56,772 nt of DNA, taken from positions 1 to 56,772 of the forward strand of contig JAISYU010000027.1 in NCBI GenBank assembly GCA_031269685.1, given 5' to 3'. This document shows positions 23,501-49,964 of this stretch, in pieces. A program made the position numbers and the translations under genes. The notes beneath the pieces were generated by a model that ran no database searches, was not told where the DNA came from, and saw only the letters and a program-made list of their open reading frames with translations. The stretch is from Dysgonamonadaceae bacterium. GTDB taxonomy: Bacteria > Bacteroidota > Bacteroidia > Bacteroidales > Azobacteroidaceae. The first letter of the stretch is position 1, and the number at the start of each line of letters is the position of its first letter.

Positions 23501-24295
23501 ATGGAAGATTTCTCGAAATATAATCCGGAAAACTCGGAACTTCGGGCAGCGCAGATGAAGATGTTGAACATACTCTTGGAAATGGACGCGATATGCCGCC
23601 GTAATAACATTCAATACTGGCTCGCATCGGGCACACTTTTGGGCGCACGCCGTCACGGCGGGTTTATCCCTTGGGACGACGACCTGGATGTAGAGGTACG
23701 CCAATCGGATCTTGGCAGGCTTTTGCGGGCATTGGAAAAGGAGTTGCCTGCTGATTTGAAATTGCAGACGAAGAAGACTGACCCTAACTATTGGTATTAT
23801 TTCCCTAAGATAAGGGACACACGCACCGAGATATACGAGCCTGAGACCGCTAAATATAACTTCCTGTATCGCGGAATCTTCATTGACATCTTCCCTGTGG
23901 AGCCTTTTTTCTCGCGCTTTATAAAGATCCGCTTGGACGGTATACTTGTACGCACGGCACGCCGCCGCTTCGCCCCGAATAATTTACAGAAATTGGTCAA
24001 TTATATGATGTTACCCTTCTATCCTTTGGCAAAGATCTTTATTGCTTTAACCAGATTCGCCTTTCATTTCCTTCCGAAGACGAAATATACCGACACACCC
24101 GGCAAGGAAACGCACGACACCCGCTTATCGCAGCATTTATTCCCGTTGACAACGATCACCTTCGAGGGCTATACCTTCCCCGCCCCTCACGATGTAGACG
24201 GCTACTTGTCAGGCATATACGGCGAGGACTTTATGACGCCTCCGCCCTTAGAAAAACGCACTCCGAGCCACTATTCTTCGATTGCCGACTCATAA
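23501..24295 (+). CDS. LicD-family phosphotransferase
   Basis: A 264-residue member of the LicD (nucleotidyltransferase-fold) family, which moves phosphocholine or another phosphorylated group from a CDP donor onto surface glycans. Key parts: YWLASGTLLGARRHGGFIPW and the metal-binding DDDLDVE (Asp59, Asp60, Asp61, Asp63), then YNFLYRGIFIDIFPVEP. The donor is unknown; no licABC genes for choline uptake are in the window. It ends the polysaccharide locus. Its last codons and stop fall inside the first unit of the 21-bp array that follows. Confidence 0.88.
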   Translation: MEDFSKYNPENSELRAAQMKMLNILLEMDAICRRNNIQYWLASGTLLGARRHGGFIPWDDDLDVEVRQSDLGRLLRALEKELPADLKLQTKKTDPNYWYYFPKIRDTRTEIYEPETAKYNFLYRGIFIDIFPVEPFFSRFIKIRLDGILVRTARRRFAPNNLQKLVNYMMLPFYPLAKIFIALTRFAFHFLPKTKYTDTPGKETHDTRLSQHLFPLTTITFEGYTFPAPHDVDGYLSGIYGEDFMTPPPLEKRTPSHYSSIADS

Positions 24296-24645
24296 AATTA
24301 GCCCGCCACCTCCTAAAATTAGCCCGCCATCTCGCGAAATTACCCCGCCATCTCGCCAATTATAACAACCCGCAGGGTTGAATATAAATAACCCCCAATG
24401 AAGCGCAGCGATTGGGGGTTAATTGAGCCCGCTACCTCCTAAGATTAGACCGCCATCTCATAAAATTAGACAGACATCTCGTGAAATTAGCCCGCCATCT
24501 CATAAAATTAGACTAACATCTCCTAAAATTAGCCCGCCACCTCCTAAAATTAGCCCGCCATCTCATAAGATTAGACAGACAACTCGTGAAATTAGACTGC
24601 CCACTCGCTAATTTCCACCGCCGTCTCGCTAATTTCCACCGTATT
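24289..24645 (+). repeat. 21-bp tandem array A
   Basis: Thirteen recognisable 21-base units. The consensus opens CTCNTAAAATTAGNNNGCCA; N after CTC is C, A or G, and the six bases after TTAG switch between CCCGCC, ACAGAC, ACTAAC and ACCGCC. Units 24289-24351 and 24436-24645 flank an 84-base block with two hairpins; 84 is exactly four units, so register is kept. In the last two units the core reads GCTAATTT, the reverse complement of AAATTAGC. The first unit holds the licD stop codon. No unique spacers, so it is not CRISPR. Confidence 0.9.
24367..24420. repeat. Double-hairpin element inside array A
   Basis: AACCC/GGGTT (24367-24379, two-base loop) is followed by AACCCCCAAT at 24390-24399 and its exact complement ATTGGGGGTT at 24411-24420 around an 11-base loop. 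It resembles a REP-like palindromic element set into the 21-bp array. It would also serve as a terminator for the polysaccharide locus, though no T-run follows. Confidence 0.75.
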
Positions 24646-24649
24646 CTTC

Positions 24650-24694
24650 CTTAATGTCATTAAAGCCTTTAAAGCCTTTAAAGTCCTTAAACAA
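24650..24694 (+). repeat. 9-bp tandem repeat, second copy
   Basis: Five 9-base units of the NTTAAAGNC type, the last degenerate. It is the same family as 1203-1247 and lies 50 bases before the queA promoter. Confidence 0.75.
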
Positions 24695-24745
24695 AAAAGC
24701 AACAAACTCCTTAATCATTTAGCCGTAACTCTGGATTATTTTACC

Positions 24746-24753
24746 TAACTTTG
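24746..24753 (+). promoter_or_regulatory. -7 box TAACTTTG for queA
   Basis: Matches TAnnTTTG and ends 22 bases before the queA ATG. An ATG at 24765 between them runs into a stop after four codons. Confidence 0.7.
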
Positions 24754-24775
24754 CGAAAAAATAAATGAACTCTCG

Positions 24776-25987
24776 ATGACCGGCAGTAATATCCCGCAAA
24801 ATATTTCCGTAGACGAAATAAAATACACATTACCCAACGAAAAAATCGCGAAATTCCCCCTCGAACAGCGCGATGCCTCTAAAATTCTCATCTGGAGGGA
24901 CGGAAATATAACCGAAAGCGCGTTCAAAAATCTCGCACAATTCATTCCTGACCGCGCAATGATGGTCTTCAACAATACCAAAGTCATCTATGCACGCATT
25001 ATCTTCCAAAAAACAAGCGGCGCAAAGGTAGAAATCTTCTGCCTCGAGCCATATACCCCCGCAGACTACGAACAATCGTTCGCACAGACCAAATCCTGCA
25101 CGTGGAGATGCCTTGTCGGCAACGCCAAACGATGGAAAAACGGCGAACTCTCAATAAATTTTGCCGAAGGGAAAGTACTTACCGCCGAACGGATTACCGA
25201 TGACAATGGAACGTCGGTAATTAATTTCAAATGGAACGATAATAACCTCACATTCGCCGATGTTATCGAAAAATGCGGGGAATTACCCATCCCACCCTAC
25301 CTTAATCGCCGCGCGGAGGAGCGCGACCGCACAACATACCAGACCGTTTACTCAACCGTCAACGGTTCTGTCGCCGCACCGACTGCCGGTCTGCACTTTA
25401 CAAAGGAAATTTTTCATGAACTGATGCGCGTCGCGACAATAGAGGAGGTAACTTTACATGTAGGGGCGGGAACTTTCAAACCCGTCAAAAGCAATACCCT
25501 CGCAGGGCACGAAATGCACAGCGAATGGTTCGCCGTGAACCGTGAAACCATCGAAAATATCCTAAAACACAAAGGAAAAACAGTCGCAGTCGGCACAACT
25601 TCCGTCCGCACTTTGGAAAGTTTATATTATATCGGGCTATATTTGAAAGAAAACCCCAATGCTGCACCCGAAGGATTGTCCGTCGGTCAGTGGACGCCAT
25701 ATTCCGCACCCGAAATCCCGCCCGATGACGCAATACAGACCATCATAGAATATTTATACCGTAATAATTTACAAAAACTCGTCGCAAAAACCGGAATAAT
25801 GATCGCTCCCGGCTACAAATTCAGGATAGTGGACGCAATAATCACCAATTTCCATCAACCCGAGAGCACTCTTTTACTCTTAGTCTCGGCTTTTACCGGC
25901 GGACGCTGGCGAAATATATACGATTACGCGCTTTCCAACGGCTTCCGCTTCCTGAGTTACGGAGATAGTTCGCTGTTAATCAGATAA
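24776..25987 (+). CDS. queA: tRNA preQ1(34) S-adenosylmethionine ribosyltransferase-isomerase
   Basis: A 403-residue cytoplasmic enzyme that transfers and rearranges the ribose of S-adenosylmethionine onto preQ1 in tRNA, giving epoxyqueuosine. Family marks: LPNEKIAKFPLEQRDASKIL at the N-terminus, MVFNNTKVIYAR, GSVAAPTAGLHFT and VGTTSVRTLESL. QueH, which does the next step, is encoded 1.8 kb away at 27831, with nadB between them on the other strand. The gene ends 12 bases inside the 3' end of nadB. Confidence 0.95.
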   Translation: MTGSNIPQNISVDEIKYTLPNEKIAKFPLEQRDASKILIWRDGNITESAFKNLAQFIPDRAMMVFNNTKVIYARIIFQKTSGAKVEIFCLEPYTPADYEQSFAQTKSCTWRCLVGNAKRWKNGELSINFAEGKVLTAERITDDNGTSVINFKWNDNNLTFADVIEKCGELPIPPYLNRRAEERDRTTYQTVYSTVNGSVAAPTAGLHFTKEIFHELMRVATIEEVTLHVGAGTFKPVKSNTLAGHEMHSEWFAVNRETIENILKHKGKTVAVGTTSVRTLESLYYIGLYLKENPNAAPEGLSVGQWTPYSAPEIPPDDAIQTIIEYLYRNNLQKLVAKTGIMIAPGYKFRIVDAIITNFHQPESTLLLLVSAFTGGRWRNIYDYALSNGFRFLSYGDSSLLIR

Positions 25988-27562
25988 GCCGTCGCGGATT
26001 TTTTCGGGATAGTCTATATTATAATGTAAGCCCCGGCTTTCTTTACGTTCCATTGCCTGTTTTATAACGAGATAACCGGCGCAGATAATATTACGTAACT
26101 CGCAAAGACTCTTCGATACCGCAGATCGTACAAAGAGGCTCTCGGTTTCACGGTACACAAGTTCAAGGCGCTCGAAGGCTCTCTCCAAACGCAAATTTGA
26201 ACGTACAATACCAACGTAATTACTCATAATGGCATTGACTTCTCGCGCAGTTTGAGTGATGAGCACCATTTCCTCAGTCAGCGATGCGCCGGTGTAATTC
26301 CATTCAGGGATAATGTTTTCGCAATTTCCGTACCCCTCAATGTGTGCTATCGAATGTCTTGCAGCGGCGTCGGCATATACAATAGCCTCTATCAGAGAAT
26401 TGGAGGCAAGCCGGTTAGCACCGTGAAGACCTGTCCTGGAACATTCGCCGGCAGCGTAAAGCCGGTTGATGGTTGTCCTTCCGTCAATATCTACCACGAT
26501 TCCTCCGCAAAGATAATGCGCGGCAGGAGCAACAGGTATGTAATCTTTCGTAATATCTATCCCTTCACTCAAACACTTACGGTAAATCATAGGATATTCC
26601 CGCTTAGTCTCCTCAGCATCTTTATGTGTCACATCAAGGTACACGAAATCACTGCCGCTGCTTTTCATTTCACTGTCAATGGCACGGGCAACAATGTCGC
26701 GTGGAGCAAGAGATCCGCGGGAATCATAGCGGCTCATAAACTCCTCACCCTTCCTCGACCTGAGAACAGCCCCGTAACCGCGAAGAGCCTCCGTAATAAG
26801 AAAAGAAGGTCGCTCCATAGGATTATACAGAGCCGTAGGATGAAACTGTACAAACTCCATGTCACAGACCCTTCCCTTTGCCCGATAAACCATTGCAATT
26901 CCATCACCGGTCGCTACCGCAGAATTAGTAGTAGTCTGGTAAATATTACCAATGCCTCCCGTACTTATCATAGTAACCTTCGACAAAAGAGTGTGGATCT
27001 CGTTAGTTTTCTCGTCCAAAGCGTAAGCACCATAACACTCTATGTCAGGAGTATCCTTCGTGACCTTAATGCCAAGATGATGCTGCGTGAGAATCTCAAT
27101 AGCAAAGTGATGAGAAAAAACAGTAATGTTTTCATTCCTCTTAACTGCCTCAATAAGACTCTCCTGTATCTCCTGACCAGTATTGTCTTTGTGATGGAGA
27201 ATGCGAAATTCCGAATGTCCACCCTCACGGTGCAAATCGAAATCACCAGCCCTGTCCCTGTCAAAATCTACTCCCCACCTGATAAGTTCCTTTATCTGAC
27301 CCGGAGCATCGCGTACCACTTTCTCAACAACCTGCCTGTCGCAAATACCGTCACCGGCAACAAGAGTATCTTCAACATGCTTCTCGAAATCATCCCAAGG
27401 CAAAGTAACAGAAGCAATTCCCCCTTGAGCGTAAAAGGTGTTCGCATCTTCAAGAGTAGTCTTGCAAAGCAAAGCAACCTTTCCCCTGTCGGCAACCTTC
27501 AATGCAAAACTCATACCGGCAATGCCGGACCCAATAACCAAAAAGTCAAATCTTTTTACCAT
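25976..27562 (-). CDS. nadB: L-aspartate oxidase
   Basis: A 528-residue FAD enzyme that oxidises aspartate to iminoaspartate, the first step of NAD synthesis. The FAD-binding N-terminus is FLVIGSGIAGMSFALKVADR; active-site regions are HREGGHSEFRILHHKDNTG, GDGIAMVYRAKG, VQFHPTAL and CGGIVVDIDGRT. NadA and NadC are not in the window. Start chosen at ATG 27562 because a -7 box lies 21 bases upstream; an upstream in-frame ATG would sit next to the promoter. A 446-codon open frame on the opposite strand is a shadow. Confidence 0.95.
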   Translation of the reverse strand: MVKRFDFLVIGSGIAGMSFALKVADRGKVALLCKTTLEDANTFYAQGGIASVTLPWDDFEKHVEDTLVAGDGICDRQVVEKVVRDAPGQIKELIRWGVDFDRDRAGDFDLHREGGHSEFRILHHKDNTGQEIQESLIEAVKRNENITVFSHHFAIEILTQHHLGIKVTKDTPDIECYGAYALDEKTNEIHTLLSKVTMISTGGIGNIYQTTTNSAVATGDGIAMVYRAKGRVCDMEFVQFHPTALYNPMERPSFLITEALRGYGAVLRSRKGEEFMSRYDSRGSLAPRDIVARAIDSEMKSSGSDFVYLDVTHKDAEETKREYPMIYRKCLSEGIDITKDYIPVAPAAHYLCGGIVVDIDGRTTINRLYAAGECSRTGLHGANRLASNSLIEAIVYADAAARHSIAHIEGYGNCENIIPEWNYTGASLTEEMVLITQTAREVNAIMSNYVGIVRSNLRLERAFERLELVYRETESLFVRSAVSKSLCELRNIICAGYLVIKQAMERKESRGLHYNIDYPEKIRDGLSD

Positions 27563-27583
27563 ATCTCTTTCAATAAACAAACA

Positions 27584-27591
27584 CAAAGGTA
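27584..27591 (-). promoter_or_regulatory. -7 box TACCTTTG for nadB
   Basis: On the minus strand, 21 bases before the nadB ATG. Confidence 0.75.
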
Positions 27592-27801
27592 AAGAAAAAA
27601 GTTAATATTGAAAGCCGACACTGACAGCAATGAACCTGAAACACAACAGACGCATCACTGCGCCTGCTGATCTAATATAGTAAAATTATTACAAGATTAA
27701 AAAATAAACATTATGTCCATTTCATTAACTTATTATGGAAAATAAAAATTATAAGCAGTACAAATGTACAAGTCTTTTCTTTATCCTCCAAATTTTTTAC
27801 G

Positions 27802-27809
27802 TAATTTTG
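27802..27809 (+). promoter_or_regulatory. -7 box TAATTTTG for queH
   Basis: Ends 21 bases before the ATG at 27831. It places the transcript start after the upstream in-frame ATG at 27735, which decides the queH start. Confidence 0.7.
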
Positions 27810-27830
27810 TGCAATATTTTAAATAAATTC

Positions 27831-28364
27831 ATGAAATTGTTATTACACTCATGTTGTGCGCCATGCTCCGCGGCGATAATTGAATACTTATTACAGATTA
27901 ATATTAAACCGGTTATCTTTTATTTCAATCCTAATATATTCCCTAAAGAAGAATATGAAAAACGGAAGAATGAATTGACGAAATATGCTGCAATGTTGAA
28001 TTTAGAGGTCATCGACGGAGACTATAATCATGATTTATGGCTTTCAGAGGTGAAAAATTTTGAAAATGAACCGGAACGAGGCATCAGATGCATGAAATGT
28101 TTCAGTATCAGGCTTTCCGCAACAGCAAAATTTGCTCACGAAAACGGATTTGATACAATAACTTCTACGCTTGGGTCTTCACGATGGAAAAATCTTAAAC
28201 AAATTTCGGAAGCGGGGAAGGCTGCTGTTGAACCTTTTACGGGATTAACATTCTGGGACAAAAACTGGAGAAAAGACGGGCTTAGCGAACGACGAAATTT
28301 TTTGATACACACAAATAATTTTTATAACCAGGTTTACTGTGGATGCGAGTTTAGTGTGAAATAA
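27831..28364 (+). CDS. queH: Epoxyqueuosine reductase QueH
   Basis: A 177-residue protein that reduces epoxyqueuosine to queuosine in tRNA, the non-cobalamin alternative to QueG. Conserved cysteines that hold the iron-sulfur cluster and metal are visible in LLLHSCCAPCSAA (Cys8, Cys9, Cys12), GIRCMKCFSIRL and VYCGCEFS. Length is normal for the family. The start was set at ATG 27831, where homology begins. With queA at 24776 it supplies the two last steps of queuosine formation. Confidence 0.93.
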   Translation: MKLLLHSCCAPCSAAIIEYLLQINIKPVIFYFNPNIFPKEEYEKRKNELTKYAAMLNLEVIDGDYNHDLWLSEVKNFENEPERGIRCMKCFSIRLSATAKFAHENGFDTITSTLGSSRWKNLKQISEAGKAAVEPFTGLTFWDKNWRKDGLSERRNFLIHTNNFYNQVYCGCEFSVK

Positions 28365-28380
28365 TCAAATAAATTTTTTA

Positions 28381-28388
28381 TACCTTTG
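28381..28388 (+). promoter_or_regulatory. -7 box TACCTTTG for the S41 protease
   Basis: Matches TAnnTTTG and ends 20 bases before the ATG at 28409. Confidence 0.75.
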
Positions 28389-28408
28389 CAGCCATAAAAT
28401 ATAAATTT

Positions 28409-35288: not shown

Positions 35289-35374
35289 TAGAAATAATTC
35301 GTGATTGACAACGTATAACCAAAAATATTTTCACTTTTTTTCGCAAAAGGTATTGTTTATTCAAAAAAAGTGCG

Positions 35375-35382
35375 TATCTTTG
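35375..35382 (+). promoter_or_regulatory. -7 box TATCTTTG for array B and DUF6261 copy 2
   Basis: Matches TAnnTTTG and is the only good box before the DUF6261 gene. It ends 8 bases before an ATG at 35391, so a transcript would begin almost at that codon and run through array B. Confidence 0.7.
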
Positions 35383-35390
35383 CAGCCGCT

Positions 35391-35843
35391 ATGAACTCTA
35401 CAGTTACATACAGTATCGTAAAGATGATGCCGAATACGGAAAATTCACTCACAACAGCAGTGGGAAACGGGAATCGGACATCAGGGTCGCTTCCAACAAC
35501 GGTGGGAAGTAAGAATCTGATGCGAAAATTACTTCCCAACATTGCGGAAAATAAGAATCACATGAGAAAGTTACTTCCCAACGTTGCGGAAAACAAGAAT
35601 CTGATGCGAAAGTTATTTTCCGCAACGTTGGGAAACGAGAATCTGACGCGAAAGTTATTTTCCGCAACGTTGGGAAGCAAGAATCTGATGCGAAAGTTAT
35701 TTTCCGCAACGTTGGGAAACAAGAATCTGACGCGAAAGTTATTTTCCGCAACGTTGGGAAGCAAGAATCTGATGAGAAAGTTATTTTCCGCAACGTTGGG
35801 AAACTTACCGAAACAAGAAATATTAACTAAAATAAAACTATAA
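35391..35843 (+). CDS. Possible repeat-protein or leader ORF across array B
   Basis: A 150-codon frame starting at ATG 35391 and ending with TAA one base before the DUF6261 ATG. From about residue 13 it is built from 7- and 14-residue repeats such as KNLMRKLFSATLGN, giving a Lys/Asn/Leu-rich basic protein. No family is recognised. For coding: a promoter next to the ATG, an unbroken frame, and coupling-distance to the next gene. Against coding: the repeat unit is a multiple of three, so several frames are open on both strands, and similar arrays elsewhere lack good starts. It may be a leader rather than a working protein. Confidence 0.4.
   Translation: MNSTVTYSIVKMMPNTENSLTTAVGNGNRTSGSLPTTVGSKNLMRKLLPNIAENKNHMRKLLPNVAENKNLMRKLFSATLGNENLTRKLFSATLGSKNLMRKLFSATLGNKNLTRKLFSATLGSKNLMRKLFSATLGNLPKQEILTKIKL
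35427..35804 (+). repeat. 21-bp tandem array B with inverted units
   Basis: Exactly eighteen 21-base units (378 bases). Two unit types alternate: X starts AAGAATCTGATGCGAAAGTT and Y starts TTTTCCGCAACGTTGGGAA. In the two XY pairs at 35532-35594 the Y core is present as its reverse complement (TTCCCAACGTTGCGGAA), whereas in the five pairs from 35616 on it is in the forward orientation. The first six units (35427-35531 and earlier partners) are more diverged. Y is a quasi-palindrome centred on AACGTT. Confidence 0.95.
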
Positions 35844-35844
35844 T

Positions 35845-36771
35845 ATGAAAATAGTAAAAGCAAGACTTGAGTATTATCGCAATGAAGCGCATTTTCAAAT
35901 GATGTCTTTATTCCAAAAGAGGTTGGCGGCAGACCCCGCCGTAGTGAATATCGTTGCAACCCTTATGGGCACATTCAACACCGAAGTAGAACTCGAAAGC
36001 AAACTCGTTGACGCCGTCCGGAGCAGCCCCTACACCGAGCAACTTGAAGAACTCGACAAGCGGCTTGACCGCGCGATAGTCGGATTAAGCGCTACCATTG
36101 AAGCAGATCTTCACCACTACAACTCCCAGATTGTTGAGGCTGCAAAGAAGATCGCCCTGAGACTGAAAGCCTTTCGTGGCGAAATCGAAAAGAAGCCCTA
36201 CGAGGAAGAATCCGCCGCTGTGAAAGTTCTGCTAAATGACCTGAAAACAACATATTCCGCAGAAGTCGGAACGCTGAGTCTGAGCGGATGGGTGTTTGAG
36301 ATTTCGGATGCGCAGACGACATTCGAGGAATTATTCCTCAAGCGTGACGACGAACGGGCATCCCGTCCGACGGAAAAATTGCCCGATGTCCGTAAGCGGG
36401 TTAACGTCCTCTACCGCAATATGGTAGAATTGATTGACGCTTACGGCTCTCTCAACGGATACGATGTAACAAGCGACTTTATCGGTAAAGTCAACAGCGA
36501 CATCACCTATTTTAACGAGCACATTCACAGTCATGCGAAGAAAAACATTGACAAAGCGATTGTTAACGACATCCCTCCACAGGTCTATACCGACGAACCC
36601 GTCGTTCCGATGCCGGAGGTGTTTTACGATGACAAAAAACTTGTCTTCACCCGAGACTATGAACTCTCTTACCGCGACAATGACGGACCCGGCACGGCGC
36701 TGGTCACGATACACGGTAAAGGTTTATACAAAGGTCGTAAGCAGGTGAGCTTTAATATCGTAAAAGAGTGA
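35845..36771 (+). CDS. DUF6261 family protein, copy 2
   Basis: A 308-residue protein collinear with copy 1 at 16-954. Residues 20-110 are almost identical (including DKRLDRAIVGL and TIEADLHHYN), and the end differs (about residues 200-308). It has no signal peptide. The function of the family is unknown. It is preceded by the array-B ORF (one-base gap) and followed, 94 bases on, by a gene for a secreted BspA-like protein, which matches the pairing seen with copy 1. The conserved N-terminus suggests recent duplication or gene conversion. Confidence 0.82.
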   Translation: MKIVKARLEYYRNEAHFQMMSLFQKRLAADPAVVNIVATLMGTFNTEVELESKLVDAVRSSPYTEQLEELDKRLDRAIVGLSATIEADLHHYNSQIVEAAKKIALRLKAFRGEIEKKPYEEESAAVKVLLNDLKTTYSAEVGTLSLSGWVFEISDAQTTFEELFLKRDDERASRPTEKLPDVRKRVNVLYRNMVELIDAYGSLNGYDVTSDFIGKVNSDITYFNEHIHSHAKKNIDKAIVNDIPPQVYTDEPVVPMPEVFYDDKKLVFTRDYELSYRDNDGPGTALVTIHGKGLYKGRKQVSFNIVKE

Positions 36772-36865
36772 GGAGTGAGGAATGAGCGTCCTTAAAGACC
36801 TTATTTGAGAGAGAGAAATAAATAACAAACAAATATTGAACAGTAACATTAAAAAACAAAACCAA

Positions 36866-38218
36866 ATGAAAAAGTATCTTCTAACTATGATCGCACTCTT
36901 CATGCTGAGCGCAACAGGTTTCGCGGAAATCATAGAATCCGGCACAACCGGAGACTGTACGTGGACGCTTTCGGATGATGGTACGCTAACTATTAGCGGT
37001 ACAGGGGCGATGCCTGATTATACCTCTTTGAGTCTTGCTCCCTGGTATGCTTACTTTTCTTCAATTACAACGGTCGTAATTGGGGATGGTGTAACAAGTA
37101 TTGGAAATGAGGCTTTTTACATGTGCAGCAATATGACTTCAGTTACTATTGGAAACAGTGTAACAAGTATTGGAAAGTATGCTTTTAACGGTTGTGAGAA
37201 ACTGACTTCCGTTACCATTCCTAACAGCGTAACAAGTATTGGAGATTTTGCTTTTAACTCTTGCGACGGACTGACTTCAGTTACCATTCCCAACAGCGTG
37301 ACAAGTATTAAAGCGGCTGCTTTTTCCTATTGCAGCAGTTTGTCTTCCGTTACTATTGGAAGCAGTGTAACAAGTATTGGAGGTGGTGCTTTTAGAGATT
37401 GCAGCAAACTGACTTCCGTTACCAATCTTAACCCGACGCCGCAAAGCATAAACAACATGGTATTTCAAAACGTTGATTTAATTAACGCCACGCTTTACTT
37501 TCCCGCCGAGTCTATTGAAGATTACAAAGCCGCAGAAATATGGAAGGAGTTCGGAAATATTGTTCCCCTATTCCATGTCTCAATAACCGCTAATAATCCA
37601 AGCATGGGAACTGTTACCGGAACAGGAGATTATACGGAAAACAGCACAGTAACTATTACTGCAACCGCAAATCCTGGTTACAAGTTCGTTAAATGGGATG
37701 ATGACAATACACAGAATCCTCGAACAATAACCGTAACACAGGATATAACCTGTACGGCTATATTTGAAGCAATCACTTATCATGTAACAGTGAGCGCCAA
37801 CAATACAAGCATGGGAACTGTTACCGGAACAGGAGATTATGAGGAAAACAGCACGGCAACTATCAGTGCAACCGCTAATCCGGGTTACAAATTTGTGAAA
37901 TGGGATGATGACGATACGCAGAATCCGAGAACAATAACCGTAACGCAGGATACAACCTATACGGCGATATTTGATGTCAACACAAACATACAGCAGACGT
38001 CGGATAATGATGTCAGCATTTATCCGAACCCTGTCACGGAAAGTTTCCGCATCAACGGCATCACTGCACCGACAGAGGTAACAGTAACCGATCTTAGTGG
38101 TCGAACAGTATTACAGCAAATCGTCGAAGCCGGTGAATCTGTCGCAGCAGGTAATTTTCCAAATGGTGTTTACCTCGTTCGTGCAGGCGGTAAGACATTG
38201 AAGGTAGTGAAGAACTAA
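36866..38218 (+). CDS. Secreted BspA-like LRR protein with InlB repeats and T9SS tail
   Basis: A 450-residue exported protein. Signal peptide in residues 1-20 (FMLSATGFA). Residues about 70-195 hold five 23-residue BspA-type leucine-rich repeats (VTIPNSVTSIGDFAF). Residues about 238-375 are two divergent InlB B-repeats (NPGYKFVKWDDDN). The last 70 residues are a T9SS type-A sorting domain (VSIYPNPVTESFRI, NGVYLVRAGGKTLKVVKN). It is a probable surface adhesin. The start is ATG 36866, where the signal peptide begins; an earlier in-frame ATG adds eleven polar residues. Confidence 0.88.
   Translation: MKKYLLTMIALFMLSATGFAEIIESGTTGDCTWTLSDDGTLTISGTGAMPDYTSLSLAPWYAYFSSITTVVIGDGVTSIGNEAFYMCSNMTSVTIGNSVTSIGKYAFNGCEKLTSVTIPNSVTSIGDFAFNSCDGLTSVTIPNSVTSIKAAAFSYCSSLSSVTIGSSVTSIGGGAFRDCSKLTSVTNLNPTPQSINNMVFQNVDLINATLYFPAESIEDYKAAEIWKEFGNIVPLFHVSITANNPSMGTVTGTGDYTENSTVTITATANPGYKFVKWDDDNTQNPRTITVTQDITCTAIFEAITYHVTVSANNTSMGTVTGTGDYEENSTATISATANPGYKFVKWDDDDTQNPRTITVTQDTTYTAIFDVNTNIQQTSDNDVSIYPNPVTESFRINGITAPTEVTVTDLSGRTVLQQIVEAGESVAAGNFPNGVYLVRAGGKTLKVVKN
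37083..37430 (+). repeat. 69-bp coding repeats (BspA LRR)
   Basis: Five near-identical 69-base units share GTAACAAGTATTGGA about every 69 bases (near 37092, 37161, 37230, 37299, 37368). High DNA identity allows unequal recombination with whole 23-residue repeats gained or lost in frame. The InlB repeats downstream recur at 207 bases (37601 and 37808). Confidence 0.8.
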
Positions 38219-43588: not shown

Positions 43589-43630
43589 CATTAAATAATT
43601 GATTTTTATATAAAGCCGAAAAAAAACGAG

Positions 43631-43638
43631 TAACTTTG
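43631..43638 (+). promoter_or_regulatory. -7 box TAACTTTG for tdh
   Basis: Ends 14 bases before the tdh ATG at 43653. Confidence 0.7.
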
Positions 43639-43652
43639 CGGAAAATTTTTTT

Positions 43653-44675
43653 ATGAAGGCATTAGTTAAAAAATTTGCGGAAAAGGGAATATGGCTTGAA
43701 AATGTTCCGCTACCGATAATCGGTAAAGATGATGTTTTGGTAAAGATAACAAAGAACGCGATATGCGGCACAGATCTCCATATATATGAATGGAATCGCT
43801 GGGCACAGGCTACGATAAAGCCACCGATGACAATTGGTCATGAATATGTCGGCGTAGTCGTTGACCGCGGCGCGAACGTAAAAAATATAGAAATTGGGCA
43901 GCGGGTGACGGGCGAAGGTCATACTTACTGCGGGCACTGCCGTAATTGCAGGCGCGGGAAATTGCACGTCTGCGAAAATTCTATAGGCATCGGCGTCAAC
44001 CGTGACGGTGCGATGGCTGAATATTTGTCTTTGCCGGCGACGAATGTTATTCAACTTGACAATCGCATCTCCGACGACATGGCATCAATCATGGATCCCT
44101 TCGGAAATGCAACACATACAGCGTTTTCTTTTCCTTTGCTCGGTGAAGACGTTTTGATTACCGGCGCGGGATTAATCGGCTGTATGGCGACTGCGATAAC
44201 CCGATTTGCGGGATCGAGGTATGTAGTAGTTACCGATGTAAATGAATACCGCCTTAACCTTGCTCGGCAGATGGGCGCTACGAAAACGGTAAATCCTGCG
44301 AAAGGGGAGAAAGTTTCGGATATAATGAATGAACTTAACATTAAAGGCTTTGACGTCGGGCTGGAAATGTCCGGCGCACCGCAGGCGTTCAACGAAATGC
44401 TTGATTCGATGTATAACGGCTCAAGTGTTTCATTACTCGGCATTTTGCCCGACGGTTCTGGAATAAATTGGAGTAAGGTTATTTTTAAGGCATTAACGTT
44501 AAAAGGTATCTACGGTCGTGAGATGTGGGAGACCTGGTACAAGATGCAGCAGATGCTTATCGCAGGAATCGACATTTCGCCGGTTATCACTCACCGTTTC
44601 GGGATAGACGATTTCCAGATGGGATTTGACGCAATGGAAAGCGGACAATGCGGTAAAGTCCTGCTGGAATGGTAA
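43653..44675 (+). CDS. tdh: L-threonine 3-dehydrogenase
   Basis: A 340-residue zinc alcohol dehydrogenase that oxidises threonine to 2-amino-3-ketobutyrate. Catalytic zinc ligands are in [10 protein letters not shown] (Cys38) and GHEYVG (His64, Glu65). The structural zinc site is Cys94, Cys97, Cys100, Cys108. The NAD-binding turn is [14 protein letters not shown]-specific similarity ([14 protein letters not shown]) separates it from other family members. Its usual partner Kbl is not in the window. A terminator hairpin follows. Confidence 0.93.
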
Positions 44676-44752
44676 TTCCGGTAATTTCAAAGGATTATTG
44701 GAATTAAGACTGAAAAACGCAGAATAAATAGTTTCTGCGAATGATTTTATGA

Positions 44753-44787
44753 GGCGGCGCGATTCATTTCGAAGCCGCCCGTTTATT
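44753..44787 (+). terminator. Terminator after tdh
   Basis: GGCGGC at 44753-44758 pairs with GCCGCC at 44774-44779 (further pairs possible), followed by CGTTTATTTT. It lies just before array C. Confidence 0.75.
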
Positions 44788-44809
44788 TTCTAAAAGAGAC
44801 GTGATATAG

Positions 44810-45140
44810 CCAAAATAGACGTGATTTTTGCCAAAATTTTGGCGTATAAGCCAAAATTTCCGTGATATTACCAAAATTTTGGCTTATACACCAAAATTTC
44901 CGTGATTTATGCCAAAATTTTGGCTTATAAACCAAAATTTCCGTGATTTTTACCAAAATTTCCGTGATTTTTACCAAAATTTCCGTGATTTTTGCCCAAA
45001 TTTTCGTGATTTTTATCAAAATTTCCGTGATTTTTACCAAAATTTCCGTGATTTTTACCAAAATTTCCGTGATTTTTGCCCAAAGTTTCGTGATTTTTAC
45101 CAAAATTTCCGTGATTTTTGCCAAAATTTTGGCAAAAATA
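44810..45140 (+). repeat. 21-bp tandem array C
   Basis: Sixteen units starting CCAAAATTT. Most are 21 bases (CCAAAATTTCCGTGATTTTT plus one base). Four units in the 5' half and the last unit are 20 bases; four carry TTGGCTTATA-like text in place of CCGTGATTT, making the palindrome CCAAAATTTTGG. Each unit has two A/T tracts roughly one helical turn apart. The 20-base units shift the reading frame, so the array is not a conserved protein gene, although long stop-free frames exist on both strands (a minus-strand frame gives KITEILV heptads). Confidence 0.9.
45114..45139. repeat. Perfect 26-bp palindrome closing array C
   Basis: The half-site ATTTTTGCCAAAA is followed directly by its exact complement with no loop. 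A further small hairpin, CCCT/AGGG, lies at about 45142-45153. Candidate protein-binding site or cruciform; no known operator was recognised. Confidence 0.85.
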
Positions 45141-45231
45141 ACCCTTCGCAGGGCAAATTTTCCACGATTATAGCCCACACTCACCATTAACTGTTCGTTA
45201 CTCACTCTTCACTATTAATTATTTTTTTTAT

Positions 45232-45239
45232 TATCTTTG
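45232..45239 (+). promoter_or_regulatory. -7 box TATCTTTG for the DUF4491 gene
   Basis: Ends 21 bases before the ATG at 45261 and excludes the upstream in-frame start at 45237. Confidence 0.72.
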
Positions 45240-45260
45240 CGCCCTCTAATTCTATTTTTC

Positions 45261-45572
45261 ATGGCTGAATTTATTAATACGTATAATCTTACGGGAATCG
45301 TTATCGGTTTTATTACTTTTTTGATAATCGGCGTTTTTCATCCTTTAGTTATCAAAGGTGAATACTATTTTGGGACAAAATGCTGGTGGGTGTTCCTTTT
45401 GATGGGCATCGCGGGACTTTCCGGCGCTGTTTGCTGGCACGGGAATACAATACTGTCGGTGTCAAGCGGAGTGTTTGGTTTTTCCGCTTTTTGGGGCATC
45501 AATGAACTGTTTGAACAGAAAAAGCGCGTCGAAAGAGGATGGTTTCCGAAAAGGGAAAATAAGGGAATTTAA
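45261..45572 (+). CDS. DUF4491 family membrane protein
   Basis: A 103-residue protein with three predicted membrane helices (TGIVIGFITFLIIGVFHPLV, WWVFLLMGIAGLSGAVCW and VSSGVFGFSAFWGI) and a short basic C-terminus. The motif HPLVIKGEYYFG is characteristic of DUF4491, a Bacteroidota family of unknown function. Start placed at ATG 45261 by promoter position and homology. The last four bases overlap the 3' end of miaB on the other strand. Confidence 0.85.
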   Translation: MAEFINTYNLTGIVIGFITFLIIGVFHPLVIKGEYYFGTKCWWVFLLMGIAGLSGAVCWHGNTILSVSSGVFGFSAFWGINELFEQKKRVERGWFPKRENKGI

Positions 45573-46915
45573 CCCTTATGAACCGGCGAACCGAACAATG
45601 TTGCAGCAGTAGCCCTTTCTATTTTAACATTCACCAAATCACCTATACGGTGGTCTTCTTTATTGAAAATCACAACTTTATTTTGCGAATTGCGACCGTA
45701 TAACTGCTCGCGCGAACGTTTTGAAAAACCTTCCACAAGCGTTTCCGTCGTTTTGCCAATATCTCGAAGATTGCTTTCAAGCGAGAGTTCGAGTTGCAGA
45801 GCGATAATCTCTCCTAAACGACGGACTTTTACCTCTTCCAGCACGTCATCTTTAAGATGCTTTGCGGCATAAGTCCCAGGTCGCTCCGAATATTTAAACA
45901 TAAACGCAGAATCAAATCGCGCTTCACGAATCAGCGAAAGAGTCTGTAAATGATCCTCTTCCGTCTCCGAAGGAAATCCGCAAAACAAATCGGTCGATAT
46001 GGAAGCATCGGGAAGAATCCTGCGGATAGCGGCGACGCGATCAAGATACCATTCGCGCGTATACCTGCGATTCATTGCTTTAAGTATCCCGGAACTGCCT
46101 GATTGAGCGGGTAAATGAATTTGCCGGCAAATATTCGGATATTGTGAAATTACCTCCAAAGTCCGGTCATTCATGTCTTTAGGATGAGAAGTCATAAACC
46201 TGATGCGCATTTCGGGAATTTCGCGAGCAACCGCCTCAAATAATCCCGGAAAATCAATCTTTTCCCGACCGTCGTCGAAAAGATAAGAATTAACGTTCTG
46301 TCCAAGCAAAGTTACTTCACGGAATCCCTGTTCCCGCATCGCACGGATCTCACGGATAATACTTTCCGGTTCGCGACTCCTTTCCCGACCTCTGGTATAT
46401 GGCACGATGCAATATGAACAGAAATTGTTGCATCCCCTCATTATCGAAACAAATCCCGAAATCTTAACGCCGGAAATTTTCAAAGGAACTACATCTTTGT
46501 AAGTCTCAGTCGAGGAAAGATTTATATTTATCGCCTTCTCACCGTTAGCCGCGCTTGCCATAAGGTGCGGAAGATCGAGATATGAGTCCGGTCCGGCGAC
46601 AAGATCTGCAAGGCGGCGGTCTATCAGTTCATTCTTAACTCTTTCAGCCATGCAACCCAAAACACCGACAATAAGATTTTTATTTTTCTTTTTCAAAGAC
46701 TGGAAATACTGTAATCTTGCGAGCGCTCTCTGTTCCGCATTATCCCTGACAGAACAGGTGTTTACGAAAATAGCATCGGCTTCTGCGATATTTTCTGTAG
46801 TTTCGTAGCCATCCATCTTAAGGACAGACGCGACAACTTCACTGTCAGCGACGTTCATCTGGCAGCCGTAAGTTTCGATGTAAAGTTTCTGTGGAACAAA
46901 ATCAGGATCCGGCAT
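45569..46915 (-). CDS. miaB: tRNA-2-methylthio-N6-dimethylallyladenosine synthase
   Basis: A 448-residue radical-SAM methylthiotransferase that adds the methylthio group to i6A37 of tRNA. The N-terminal domain has the three cluster cysteines in ETYGCQMN, VNTCSVRDNA and VGVLGCMAERV. The radical-SAM motif is RGCNNFCSYCIVPYTRGRER. A TRAM domain ends the protein (SQNKVVIF, HRIGDLVNVKIERAT). All key residues are present. Its 5' side faces a palindromic promoter region at 46987-47007. Confidence 0.95.
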   Translation of the reverse strand: MPDPDFVPQKLYIETYGCQMNVADSEVVASVLKMDGYETTENIAEADAIFVNTCSVRDNAEQRALARLQYFQSLKKKNKNLIVGVLGCMAERVKNELIDRRLADLVAGPDSYLDLPHLMASAANGEKAININLSSTETYKDVVPLKISGVKISGFVSIMRGCNNFCSYCIVPYTRGRERSREPESIIREIRAMREQGFREVTLLGQNVNSYLFDDGREKIDFPGLFEAVAREIPEMRIRFMTSHPKDMNDRTLEVISQYPNICRQIHLPAQSGSSGILKAMNRRYTREWYLDRVAAIRRILPDASISTDLFCGFPSETEEDHLQTLSLIREARFDSAFMFKYSERPGTYAAKHLKDDVLEEVKVRRLGEIIALQLELSLESNLRDIGKTTETLVEGFSKRSREQLYGRNSQNKVVIFNKEDHRIGDLVNVKIERATAATLFGSPVHKG

Positions 46916-46986
46916 GAGTTTTATTTAAAAACAACGCTTAATGAGATATAAAATACTCATTTTATTGTTTATCTAATTATTATTTG

Positions 46987-47007
46987 TAATTTTGGAGCGC
47001 AAAATTA
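46987..47007. promoter_or_regulatory. Two divergent -7 boxes forming a perfect inverted repeat
   Basis: TAATTTTG (plus, 46987-46994) and its exact complement CAAAATTA (47000-47007, TAATTTTG on the minus strand) are separated by five bases. The plus box lies 23 bases before the ATG at 47018 and has TTG 19 bases upstream, a good -33 distance. The minus box is 84 bases before the miaB ATG. They may fire divergently or form an operator. Confidence 0.55.
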
Positions 47008-47017
47008 AGAAAATTTT

Positions 47018-47401
47018 ATGGATAATCTGAAAGAATACCTTCCTTTACTCGTAATTCTGCTTATAAGTCTCATTTCACAGGCATTCAAGCCAAAGAAGAA
47101 AAAACCGGATACAGAGACTGCGCCGCAAGCAGAGAAAACTGAGCATGACGCATGGTTTGATGTGCCTCGTGTTGAAGTGAAAAAGCCGATGTCTCAGCCG
47201 AAAATACATCGACCTGTAACGCATCCGAAACCTAAGAAATCATCTTATGCAGAGATCAAAGAAGCGACTGCGACCGCAAAACGACAGGCGACAGTTGTAC
47301 TCTCCGACGAAGACACTTCTCCTCCATTCCTCAATATTTCCGATACGGACGAAATAAAAAAGGCTATTATATATTCTGAAATCTTCCGTCGACCGGAATA
47401 A
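47018..47401 (+). CDS. Small membrane-anchored protein, function unknown
   Basis: A 127-residue protein. Residues 5-22 form one hydrophobic helix (LPLLVILLISLISQAF) followed at once by KPKKKK, so the N-terminus is a signal anchor with the rest in the cytoplasm by the positive-inside rule. The remainder is Lys/Pro-rich and low in complexity, with a short acidic end (ISDTDEIKKAIIYSEIFRRPE) that could be a conserved C-terminal motif. I do not recognise a family. Confidence 0.7.
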   Translation: MDNLKEYLPLLVILLISLISQAFKPKKKKPDTETAPQAEKTEHDAWFDVPRVEVKKPMSQPKIHRPVTHPKPKKSSYAEIKEATATAKRQATVVLSDEDTSPPFLNISDTDEIKKAIIYSEIFRRPE

Positions 47402-47464
47402 ATAATGCAATTCAAATATAAAAGCGATCAATCGGTGTAGTTGATAGTAGATAAGGTTGATTGA

Positions 47465-48871
47465 TTATATTCCTTTCCCCGTGCAAATAATTTGTATTGA
47501 GTAAATCAGTATTTTGATGTCCATCAACAGCGACATATTTTCATAATAGAGAATGTCGTACTGCAATCTCTCTATCATTTCTTCTATATTGCGGGCATAT
47601 CCGAACTTAACCATACCAAGTGACGTGATACCCGGATATACATTATGCAGCAGGTAATAATACGGCGCTTTTTCCACGATCTGTTTAATGTAGTGTCTTC
47701 GTTCCGGTCGTGGACCGACTATTGACATATCCCCACACAGCACATTCCAGAATTGAGGCAGTTCATCGAGCCGATACTTCCTCATGAAATGTCCGACGGG
47801 CGTAATTCGTTCATCTTTTTCTGAAGAGAGTAATGGACCGTCGCTCTCGGCGTTTTCGTACATAGTACGAAATTTCAGTATATTAAACGGCTTACCCATA
47901 TATCCTATTCTCTCCTGGCGAATAATGATCGGACCTTTGGAGTCGCGATACACACGGAAGGCAAGGTAAGCATATACAGGGGACAGCAGTAGCATAGCCA
48001 AAGCGGAGATTATTTTATCCAGCGTCATTTTAATGTTTTTCTCTCCTTCGGGGTAATTACTTTCTGTAATATCAATCAATGGCGCGCCTTTAATTGTATG
48101 CACTTTGATATGTCCTATCAGCAGTTGGAATCTATTGAGAGGCAGTTTGATCGGCAGTTTATATTGGTAAAGTGCATAGAGTAGCGTCAGCAGTTCATCT
48201 CCGTTTGATTCGGTGGCAACTATCAGTTCGCGAGTTTTGAACTGTCGTATAATATCGGCTAAGTCTCTGATATGTCCTATTGTATTAAGTTTTGTGGATA
48301 TTTGTTTATCAGTATCTGTTTCTATATAACCTTGAATAGTGTAAGCCTTCGTATTTACCGATCGTTCGAGCATTTTGCTCACTTGCCTCGCATTATCTCC
48401 TGTACCGAGTATAAGTACGGGAGTGGTCCATTCCCTGCTGCGGATTTTTTTTGTGGCTCTGTTAGTTATTATCAGTCGGAAGAGATATGTAAATCCGAAT
48501 GAAAAAAGGAACAGATATGTGATTTGTTCGTAATAAATATTGATAGACTCAGGCAAGTTATTTAGCAGGACGATAAAGAAAATAGATAACGAACCGATTA
48601 TACAAGTCATGAATGTTCTGAACGCAACAGAGAGATGTGATTTCACTAACGGGCTGTTGTAGTAACCTGAATAATAGTGCAGTACGAGCCATCCGAGCGG
48701 TATGATAAGTTGTCCCTGTACTACATTGCTATACCAGACAAAGCCATGATATGTATCGAATTGTTTATATGCTACCAGGAAATATCTCAGGACATTGAAT
48801 ACGAACCACGCGAGATGAGCAGCCATGAAGTCTGCTGTTAGATAGATGCATGTTTGGGTTTTGTTGTTCAT
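47465..48871 (-). CDS. Second undecaprenyl-phosphate sugar phosphotransferase
   Basis: A 468-residue WbaP/WcaJ-type enzyme, a paralogue of the one at 15598. Four to five membrane helices in the first 290 residues surround a Rossmann-like section (TPVLILGTGDNARQVSKML). The catalytic end has [50 protein letters not shown] and PRPERR. It would start a second polymer or lipid-linked glycan. No glycosyltransferases accompany it. Its ATG overlaps the tsaC stop by one base. Confidence 0.9.
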   Translation of the reverse strand: MNNKTQTCIYLTADFMAAHLAWFVFNVLRYFLVAYKQFDTYHGFVWYSNVVQGQLIIPLGWLVLHYYSGYYNSPLVKSHLSVAFRTFMTCIIGSLSIFFIVLLNNLPESINIYYEQITYLFLFSFGFTYLFRLIITNRATKKIRSREWTTPVLILGTGDNARQVSKMLERSVNTKAYTIQGYIETDTDKQISTKLNTIGHIRDLADIIRQFKTRELIVATESNGDELLTLLYALYQYKLPIKLPLNRFQLLIGHIKVHTIKGAPLIDITESNYPEGEKNIKMTLDKIISALAMLLLSPVYAYLAFRVYRDSKGPIIIRQERIGYMGKPFNILKFRTMYENAESDGPLLSSEKDERITPVGHFMRKYRLDELPQFWNVLCGDMSIVGPRPERRHYIKQIVEKAPYYYLLHNVYPGITSLGMVKFGYARNIEEMIERLQYDILYYENMSLLMDIKILIYSIQIICTGKGI

Positions 48872-49434
48872 TATTTACGAATAACTTTTATTGATCCGTT
48901 ACTTGTGAAACCTATTATAGACGATGCTTTTCGTTTATCTGTTTCGGTATTGCGATAATTTACAACGTAATCTGTTAATCGCATAAAATCAGTATTTATT
49001 TCATTGAAACAGGTTGGCGTTGGTTGACCGCTAAAATTGGCTGATGTTGATACTACGGGTTTTCCGAATTTACGGCAGAGTGTTTGTGAGAATGTTTCTT
49101 TTGTCACTCTTATTGCGATACTTCCGTCTTCGCTTATCAGGTTTTGTGCGAGATTTTTTGCGTGTGGGTAAATAATTGTCAATGGTTCGACGGCAATTTC
49201 CACAATTTGGCGTGCTATTTCTGGAGTATTGTCAGTATAAATATCCAGAAGTTCTATTGAATCGACAAGTACAATCATTGACTTTTTATCTTGGCGGCGT
49301 TTTATCTCATACACTCGTGCCACAGCCTCTTCATTGGTTGCATCGCATCCAACTCCCCATACTGTGTCTGTAGGATATATTATAATTCCTCCGCTGTTCA
49401 GTACTTCGCATGTTTTAAGTATTTCTTCGTGCAT
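48871..49434 (-). CDS. tsaC: L-threonylcarbamoyladenylate synthase (TsaC/Sua5 family)
   Basis: A 187-residue YrdC-domain protein that makes threonylcarbamoyl-AMP for the t6A37 tRNA modification. Conserved parts are GGIIIYPTDTVWGVGCDATN, RRQDKKSMIVLV, GSIAIRVT and KPVVSTSANFSGQPTPTCF. It lacks the C-terminal Sua5 domain, so it is the short TsaC form. TsaB of the same pathway is encoded 0.7 kb away on the other strand beyond array D. It shares a transcript with the sugar phosphotransferase. Confidence 0.92.
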   Translation of the reverse strand: MHEEILKTCEVLNSGGIIIYPTDTVWGVGCDATNEEAVARVYEIKRRQDKKSMIVLVDSIELLDIYTDNTPEIARQIVEIAVEPLTIIYPHAKNLAQNLISEDGSIAIRVTKETFSQTLCRKFGKPVVSTSANFSGQPTPTCFNEINTDFMRLTDYVVNYRNTETDKRKASSIIGFTSNGSIKVIRK

Positions 49435-49454
49435 TTGTGCATTATTTACGGCTG

Positions 49455-49462
49455 CAAATGTA
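49455..49462 (-). promoter_or_regulatory. -7 box TACATTTG for tsaC
   Basis: Minus strand, 20 bases before the tsaC ATG. Confidence 0.7.
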
Positions 49463-49565
49463 CATAAAATTTTTTTATAACTTTATATTTTGATCAATAA
49501 TATTTTAAAAAATACTCTTTTAATTATATATTTTCTCTTTTGGGAACAAAGAGGGCAATCTTTTT

Positions 49566-49964
49566 CCGATCGTGATGTTTGTTTTGGTAATATAAAATTA
49601 TCCTTACCGTTTTACGACATTAAATGTTTTACCGTTGACGTATTCATTAACATTTTTAAAATCCTTTGTAAAAAATGTTTTCCCTCATGTACCGATCGTG
49701 ATGTTTGTTTTGGTAATATGAAATTATCCTTACCGTTTTACGACATTCAATGTTTTACCGTTGACGTATTCATTAACATTTTTAAAATCCTTTGTAAAAA
49801 ATGTTTTCTCTCATGTACCGAAAATTTTGCGACATACCCCGAAAGTTTTGTGGTATACCCCGAAGATTTTGCGACATACCCCGAAAGTTTTGCGATATAT
49901 CCCAAAAGTTTTGTGGTATATCCCGAAAGTTTTGTTACATGTACCGAAAGTTTTTTCTCTTGTA
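49566..49964 (+). repeat. 21-bp tandem array D with a 126-bp higher-order repeat
   Basis: Two 126-base direct repeats (49566-49691 and 49692-49817) differ at only a few positions; 126 is six times 21. Seven 21-base units follow at 49818-49964, each starting CCGAAAGTTTTG or close to it, then TGGTATA, CGACATA or CGATATA. Inside each 126-base copy the word GTTTTACGACATT resembles the later GTTTTGCGACAT, so the long repeat is made of diverged 21-mers. No start codon and promoter fit the open frame that crosses it. It fills the divergent tsaC-tsaB gap. Confidence 0.92.

Follow-up and report, generated by a model that had tools for sequence, protein, structure and literature searches.

The 56,772-nt stretch analysed here (contig JAISYU010000027.1 of the Dysgonamonadaceae bacterium assembly GCA_031269685.1, positions 1 to 56,772; hereafter the window) carries four arrays of tandem repeats, A to D, whose units differ and whose periods are all built on 21 bp, which raises the question of what could hold a period constant while the sequence within it is free. 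Using Tandem Repeats Finder (TRF) and inspection of the sequence, we confirmed the four arrays where an earlier note on this DNA had placed them (TRF periods 21, 42, 63, and 126). All of them are intergenic, array B nonetheless lying inside an open upstream frame. The analysis was extended to the rest of the assembly (2.23 Mb in 125 contigs, the window being contig C103 and the genome being labelled G000) and to samples within Bacteroidales. It revealed that such arrays stand upstream of genes of two families, 21 bp with a family designated X and 42 bp with DUF6261, a pairing that the note had overlooked; its interpretation overall was partly supported. We propose, with confidence that is evenly balanced, that the arrays are predicted helically phased rows of DNA-binding sites for the adjacent protein or for a specific partner of it.

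Two gene families are preceded by arrays of characteristic period

The window contains one gene together with its array. Array B (35485..35817, plus strand; 35497-35804 with period 42 by TRF) is located directly 5' of its partner, a gene of DUF6261 (35845..36771, plus strand; PF19775, E 2.4e-36), a family that one paper reportedly names. The repeat had been taken for two alternating 21-mers; its unit is actually 42 bp with two halves unlike each other, and consists of an imperfect palindrome around CAACGTTG followed by a spacer. The upstream region of a second DUF6261 gene in the window (16..954, plus strand; E 2.9e-35) falls off the contig. Altogether 14 PF19775 matches were found in the genome, 5 of them cut by a contig end, and a 41/42-bp array was present upstream of 8 of the 9 genes having upstream sequence (7 by scan, plus the degenerate 42-bp array of L260, recognised by eye and passing the array score); the gene of L256 has none. 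The units all differ between these genes, and palindromes are visible by eye in most.

Outside this genome, DUF6261 genes were assessed in 1-kb stretches starting ~90 bp inside the gene, and 40 of the 52 hits in four genomes were read (12 were not fetched). An array was present at 22 of the 40, and a scan of periods 12-74 placed these at 41 (6), 42 (13), or 43 (3): 10/12 in G039 (Tannerellaceae metagenome-assembled genome (MAG) Cf509_bin38), 6/6 in G040 (Tannerella Gx481_bin112), 1/2 in G042, where the array-less stretch is 237 bp, and 5/20 in G043 (Prevotella RUI501). No stretch of the viral contigs matched the search patterns for DUF6261. As a control, we scored random genes over 800 bp upstream, X and DUF6261 genes included; an array of any period preceded 36/330 (11%) in the window's own genome and 7/69 (10%) in G039, 2/34 in G022, and 4/218 in seven other same-genus genomes. 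The enrichment was significant for DUF6261 in the own genome (Fisher p = 4e-7) and in G039 (p = 6e-7), and for X in the own genome (p = 2e-6).

Family X emerged as the recurrent family among genes flanking the 21-bp arrays of the own genome (six genes, with the start codon toward the array each time). Its proteins are ~220 aa long and have a C-terminal stretch, RGxxGPWSPIxSAIVP, that we read as fibronectin-III-like. Pfam, NCBIfam, PADLOC, and PHROGs gave no match for the members tested; searches against solved structures returned one weak match each, and no signal peptide was noticed by eye in X or DUF6261 proteins. The own genome has 30 X match rows, fragments counted, and in the stretches read a 21-bp array lies 5' of 8 of the 10 matches having upstream sequence, one being a broken remnant (L079). 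For ten other genomes 23 loci were given, 20 of them with at least 150 bp upstream, and 18 of these 20 had an upstream array at 0.70 identity, 17 of period 21/42/63 and one, in G015, near 20.3. Two loci below the cut were borderline (L330, 0.70 by rounding, lag 42; L334, 0.68, lag 21), and L340 was counted as positive though its array is 658 bp off and weak at lag 21 (0.63). Seven of 30 X loci, with a partial or weak protein match, and an X fragment at a contig end (L362) were left out. Together, these results demonstrate that arrays are associated with both families, with a period specific to the family and units that differ between genes.

The 21-bp period dominates the genome and recurs in other Bacteroidales

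To describe the own genome we used 59 stretches, 10 picked via DNA-search matches and 49 systematic ones (595,421 bases, including one stretch composed entirely of N; 593 kb without N). In a lag scan counting a locus at at least 72% identity over 105 nt, the systematic stretches gave 32 loci at lag 21, 33 at 42, 30 at 63, 26 at 84, 22 at 105, and 19 at 126, and fewer than 2 at each lag of 18-20, 22, and 24-40, so that the sharp genome-wide peak anticipated by the earlier note was found. Small classes appeared at 23/46 and 41/82 (6 loci at 23, 4 at 41), and a lag-69 peak fits coding repeats of BspA-type leucine-rich repeat (LRR) genes, a kind that the window also contains. The same scan of 20 shuffled stretches detected 0 loci. 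By TRF, 47 of the 97 systematic arrays of period at least 15 were multiples of 21, with 12 more of period 23, 5 of 41, and 2 of 22. A catalogue of own-genome arrays holds 45 arrays of period 21, 11 of 23, 12 of 41/42, and one of 63 (70 rows, 69 once an N run was dropped). L060 and four further stretches consisting largely of N were left out of the analysis. The 33 period-21 arrays of the systematic 593 kb extrapolate to 124 for the whole genome, and own-genome lengths and counts are lower bounds because at least six arrays are cut by contig ends.

By rough calls of open reading frames (ORFs), the arrays are almost wholly intergenic, the 42-bp repeats within long ORFs of L027 and L071 being taken as coding. 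With flanking genes divergent in 9 cases, tandem in 33, and convergent in 9, their orientation was like that of other spacers (p = 0.32), and a promoter- or terminator-linked element was rejected on this result. The 23-bp arrays form a separate class (L023:8593-8706, L026:4411-4562, L063:12227-12571, and 8 more in the own genome) with mostly two unit families, CGACAATGTATGC... and CCGACGCNTGCGTCGG; no recurrent gene family was noticed beside them in the own genome.

The preference for 21-23 bp extends to relatives. The closest named records by MiaB were Dysgonomonadaceae and Tannerellaceae MAGs (71-75% identity), several of which, going by isolate names, probably come from termite or cockroach guts. 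In G039, chosen for the array richness of L093 and sampled in six stretches plus L093 (141 kb), the periods of all 17 arrays were 21 (8), 22 (2), 23 (1), 41 (1), 42 (4), or 63 (1). Across 79 other named loci from many genera (1.38 Mb), which come from one MiaB scan and partly share a neighbourhood, 18 of 35 arrays had period 21-23, 7 more fell at 40, 42, 44, 63, or 66, and the remaining ten were scattered. The same-genus genomes G003 and G021 (1.0-1.2 Mb) had no 21-23- or 41-43-bp array in 80 kb each, and array density is far lower in the sampled sister species than in the own genome. Separately, 22-bp palindromic arrays of differing sequence were seen upstream of metK in two Bacteroidaceae (2/12 metK upstream regions; L127:17061-17146 and L125:10124-10221); the array in L127, where the preceding gene is HPPK, alternates a 15-bp palindrome with a variable 7-bp spacer.

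The register is kept where the sequence is largely lost

We compared the units of the 45 own 21-bp arrays by log-odds scores and single linkage, which yielded a 14-member cluster containing array A (cluster 1), an 11-member cluster containing C and D (cluster 2), and, outside these, seven pairs and six arrays standing alone. A score of at least 12 was reached by 46 array pairs, compared to 1 with reversed units. The units of the window are hence less unrelated than the earlier note had described, and its GAAA(N)TT motif fits the cluster of C and D and less so the arrays overall. Dyad symmetry exceeded that of shuffled sequences in the own, G039, and named sets: a stem test was positive (p < 0.05) in 9/18 named arrays (Fisher 6e-10), 5/11 arrays of G039, and, among the own classes, 8/45 (21 bp), 5/11 (23 bp), and 5/12 (41/42 bp), with 1/6 in a same-genus sample (Fisher 0.03). 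Among 17 X arrays from genomes other than the own, positions 3 and 6 nt away from the dyad are more conserved and those at 7-11 nt less so. The dyad-centred profile varies between sets, and a single universal motif was rejected.

Phase was found to be kept, by eye, over interruptions. In L071 two arrays of the same family are in phase though 189 bp (9 x 21) of unlike DNA lie between them, and phase is likewise kept across a CTTAAAG stretch in L028, across the double-hairpin element shared by array A, L025, and L072, and in the 126-bp units of array D; some of these cases have common ancestry. The most extended example is L282 (G054, same genus), where a 21-bp register persists over ~850 bp (z 8-20) at 0.44-0.68 best-lag identity, with at least one one-base slip near its start. 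Constant period with free sequence, the rule that the earlier note had proposed, is largely right.

A period of 21 bp is also seven codons, and the arrays could encode heptad-repeat (coiled-coil) peptides. Some units do read as heptads, and array B lies in an open frame (35391..35843, plus strand, from an ATG read by eye; the listed frame starts with GTG at 35370) whose stop (35841-35843) ends 1 nt short of the DUF6261 start codon at 35845. Total open frames in the 45 own arrays were somewhat raised (134 vs 105.8 expected). However, 41 of the 45 had an open frame against 40.3 expected after permuting unit columns, array A having none; selection for open frames is not supported. Variability at third positions gave no signal (codon-position bias at p < 0.05 in 2/43 arrays), arrays of 41 and 23 bp break the frame, and L282, with ORFs of 67-125 aa over its first part, has no ORF of at least 50 aa between 1677 and 2146. 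The open-frame and codon-position tests refute coding heptads as a general reading, and we consider it extremely improbable.

Two helical turns and an orientation-independent intergenic placement would also suit intrinsically curved or nucleoid-organising DNA, to which the link with genes would be secondary. A 10.5-bp harmonic excess is present in the purine/pyrimidine pattern (t 4.3) and in A-T skew (t 4.4), but that of A+T itself is weak (t 2.2 for bases, 1.2 for dinucleotides), and specificity for gene families is not predicted by such a role, which appears very unlikely. Of the earlier proposal of helical phasing, simple A-tract bending as the common denominator was not upheld, while its reading as phased sites for a protein was supported.

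A leader module, promoters and RNA folding

A multi-copy 5' leader module precedes ~10 own arrays, array B included (35348..35542, plus strand; nhmmer E 4.5e-35), in copies that are 88-95% identical (27 match rows in the own genome, among them L036:5004-5199, L073:454-649, and L078:881-1072). Besides a promoter motif it carries a short open frame that is conserved (MKTK...RMPNTEKY...SNILLTHTHTH) and, in many copies, a long (AC)n tract, which the window copy is without; several contigs end in the module. Such a tract of dinucleotides, within a leader that may be translated, resembles a phase-variation switch. Matches occurred in 30 of 58 genomes, the own included, and outside the own genome were short pieces similar to the promoter or to the AC tract. 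That all arrays share one mobile flank was rejected, the leader being confined to a subset.

The module bears on the alternative that the arrays are neutral or selfish minisatellites, spread by a mobile leader or an element like a miniature inverted-repeat transposable element (MITE), with units that drifted and a period merely inherited. Such spread would be in keeping with the closely similar leaders, with unit families common to several loci, with the strong expansion in the own species and G039 beside low density in sister genomes, and with an orientation no different from other spacers. It is harder to reconcile with the recurrence of family-specific periods (21 for X, 41-43 for DUF6261) across genomes with unlike units, and with a register that survives the sequence divergence of L282; on balance we judge it unlikely.

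The arrays might instead act as RNA, the repeats being transcribed in the leader and bound, perhaps processed, by the downstream protein in the manner of type III toxin-antitoxin systems, in which the parts are ordered alike: tandem repeats directly 5' of a gene, the repeat differing between genes. The Bacteroidales -7 promoter motif is TAnnTTTG, and a candidate matching it, TATCTTTG (35375..35382, plus strand), lies ahead of array B, as a motif does at L254 and L258 in the own genome. As RNA, arrays also fold far better than shuffled sequences, with a mean z of -5.84 across the 23 X arrays and of -3.08 across the 31 DUF6261 arrays. Antisense folding, however, was equally strong, at -5.46 for X and -3.43 for DUF6261 (paired t -0.83 and 1.13). 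In the 300 bp preceding the array, the motif was no commoner in sense than in antisense (10 vs 13 for DUF6261, 12 vs 9 for X), and it occurred between array and gene at 12/31 DUF6261 loci (antisense 2), so that joint transcription of array and gene is not required. These counts left out 16 of 40 DUF6261 upstream stretches, and loci were mostly chosen for having arrays. No toxin family was matched in Pfam, NCBIfam, or PADLOC. Rfam gave no match at gathering score in the window, and over seven loci it returned a single one, to a cobalamin riboswitch situated in another part of L073; a known RNA as the identity of the arrays was rejected from these searches. We regard a role as RNA as quite unlikely.

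X genes on viral-collection contigs

IMG/VR scans identified X relatives on GC-rich contigs, with arrays at 5 of 8 distinct X genes. Four contigs carry corresponding X genes (L363-L366), each with nine 21-bp units and no indel among the four; TCC...GGA at fixed columns is nearly invariant, and other columns and the spacers drift. Spacers that vary at constant length speak against neutral minisatellites, and GC-rich X arrays (L363-L367) obeying the same rule speak against structural DNA. By eye, the core would leave a very short hairpin, a point against action as RNA.

A further contig, L367, encodes an X protein 71% identical to that of L356 and also has nine units, with TCGC in all nine where GGA stood. 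Its spacers nevertheless resemble those of L363-L366 unit by unit: that of unit 7 is identical (9/9), that of unit 8 is 78-89% identical, and same-unit spacer identity is 0.47-0.56 vs 0.34-0.35 for other units (permutation p = 0.0006-0.027).

Among L357-L367, on contigs IMGVR_UViG_3300044993_000576, IMGVR_UViG_3300048930_000955, and IMGVR_UViG_3300048930_001200, two different X genes lie ~3-4 kb from each other within one contig, the first type with an array and the second without.

Orphan arrays and neighbouring genes

Arrays A, C, and D of the window have no strand assigned. Array A (24270..24653; 24294-24601 with periods 21/63 by TRF) has 21-bp units with TRF consensus AATTAGACCGCCATCTCATAA and is an orphan, with neither an X nor a DUF6261 match adjoining it. 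Within it is a double-hairpin element (24366..24421, no strand assigned) whose flanking units are in phase modulo 21, and elements resembling it occur in L025 (as an 84-bp higher-order repeat), L072, and L028. Array C (44810..45153; 44851-45129 with period 21 by TRF), also an orphan, is built of 21-bp units, the first of which show CCAAAATTTTGG dyads, and it matched only G054 and G011 among 57 genomes besides the own. Array D begins with two 126-bp (6 x 21) copies at 97% identity (49566..49817), the super-repeat of the earlier note, in phase with the 21-bp units CCGAAAGTTTTGCGATATACC behind them (49818..49969); TRF reported 49566-49821 (126 x2) and then 49818-49954 (21/42/63). Like these three, most own 21-bp arrays lack an X or DUF6261 neighbour; many lie next to housekeeping-like genes (names by eye), and several belong to the same unit family as an X-borne array. 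Outside its own locus, array D finds its best match in the genome (89% over 76 bp) in the array that precedes the X gene C120:4325-5005.

A third family, Z, adjoins 21-bp arrays with its 3' side (L023:14917-15642, minus strand; L042:9545-10144, plus; L282:289-1020, plus). Repeats of 9 bp (TTAAAGNCC) often adjoin 21-bp arrays, as at 1204-1243 and 24660-24691 of the window and in L037, L049, L066, and L071. Directly after the DUF6261 gene of the window, 36836-38218 encodes a BspA-type LRR protein with InlB B-repeats and a Por secretion tail, in which 69- and 207-bp repeats are coding.

Proposed explanation

Under the explanation that we propose, each array would be a row of DNA sites, many of them near-palindromes, recurring every two helical turns (21 bp) or every four (41-43 bp). 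X and DUF6261 copies with an array immediately 5' would form gene-array cassettes, their period set by the family and their unit private to the gene. Both may be small proteins with a helical N-terminal part and a C-terminal beta part that could be read as immunoglobulin- or fibronectin-like. The protein, or its specific partner, would bind its own sites side by side on one DNA face; cooperative contacts between protein molecules would hold the spacing, and the recognised letters would co-evolve with each paralogue. Binding would control the protein's own gene and would also act in trans at those orphan arrays that share its site family. Array B would then be a complete cassette, and A, C, and D orphan sites or relics of lost cassettes. 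That orphan arrays are trans sites or relics is the weakest part of this account.

Several observations weigh against binding-site rows. No DNA-binding domain was recognised in X or DUF6261 proteins, and the structure models are poor: that of the window DUF6261 gene (helices to residue 227, strands at the C-terminus) has a mean pLDDT of 38.7, and that of X, from two relatives (helices 10-99, strands after 150), one of 58.9. Partner genes are missing from most arrays, with an X gene or remnant at just 8/45 catalogued own 21-bp arrays (family Z at 2 more) and, by coordinates, X or DUF6261 at 3/17 arrays of the G039 sample. Arrays are missing from some genes as well, namely a pair of neighbouring X genes in L059, the three of the second type in L358-L360, which lack one directly upstream, and all but the 5/20 DUF6261 genes of G043 with a clear array, a genome that has no control count. 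Many units, such as most of those in cluster 1, are not palindromic, and a whole-unit palindrome test, one of two tests, was positive in just 5/45 own 21-mers (two 42-bp repeats within long ORFs were left out of this reading). The core-versus-spacer conservation of the X arrays in other genomes was not seen in 41 own 21-bp arrays; in L363-L366 the contrast is small, since spacers differ by 0.06-0.28 and the remaining columns by 0.06-0.22 (six pairs), and the core-switch statistic of L367 is modest. The indel/substitution ratio within own 21-bp arrays (48/1600 = 0.030) alone proves little because it has no neutral control. Finally, there is no single regulatory geometry, given a promoter motif that lies behind the array at many DUF6261 loci and, ahead of arrays, is no commoner than in antisense.

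A stronger version, one protein with one private array, would make dozens of X, DUF6261, and perhaps Z paralogues in one genome, each reading its own sites at a spacing of two or four helix turns, into parallel insulated networks with their orphan arrays, specificity switching in all units at once while spacers stay; this we regard as plausible but somewhat doubtful. Even the pairing itself gives two uncharacterised multi-copy families a concrete, testable partner in their own upstream arrays. If the proteins bind, up to ~forty natural pairs of protein and DNA, with two folds, differing specificities, and a helical ruler built in, would exist in a single genome, a resource for deriving a recognition code and for obtaining insulated regulators, and the clustering of intergenic repeats at 21-23 and 41-44 bp in the sampled Bacteroidales would be explained.

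Comparison with known systems

In iteron arrays, direct repeats about two turns apart are bound cooperatively by an adjacently encoded Rep protein, and the sequence varies between replicons while the spacing varies little. The present arrays share the direct repeats at about two helical turns, but the adjacent genes are DUF6261 or X, with no Rep match found and no origin known, many cassettes occur per chromosome, units are often palindromic, and orphans outnumber cassettes. Type III toxin-antitoxin systems (ToxIN, AbiQ, CptIN, TenpIN) likewise have tandem repeats immediately ahead of the gene for a small protein, the repeat being protein-specific. The arrangement of repeats and gene is the same here; X, in contrast, matches nothing in Pfam, NCBIfam, or PADLOC and DUF6261 matches PF19775 only, folding has no strand asymmetry, the period is fixed by family at 21 or 41-43, and a promoter motif is often in between.

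The available portions of the literature searched, including PMC4060949 and PMC5771137, describe neither 21-/42-bp arrays of this kind nor a function for DUF6261, and the gene-array pairing looks like an apparently undescribed DNA-recognition system. Repetitive extragenic palindromic sequences and bacterial interspersed mosaic elements (REP/BIME), as presented in the accessible text of PMC3733652, are short intergenic multi-copy palindromes with RAYT transposases; they resemble our arrays as short intergenic palindromes in many copies and differ from them in that ours are in strict tandem register with a locus-specific unit. BrickBuilt, a minisatellite-MITE of Porphyromonas gingivalis with 23-nt units (Klein et al. 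2015, PMC4596501), has much in common with them going by the part of that article available to us: Bacteroidales hosts, intergenic position (here by rough ORF calls), head-to-tail units of about two turns at many loci, varying repeat number, and a leader common to loci, here that of ~10 own arrays. The same text gives BrickBuilt one genome-wide unit consensus, small inverted-repeat ends, and diverse flanking genes. By eye, its 23-nt consensus does not correspond to the window, with periods of 21, 42, and 126, or to the own 23-bp arrays, which have other consensuses. Unlike BrickBuilt as described there, the arrays reported here have a period of 21 or 42, units that vary by gene, and a pairing with X or DUF6261.

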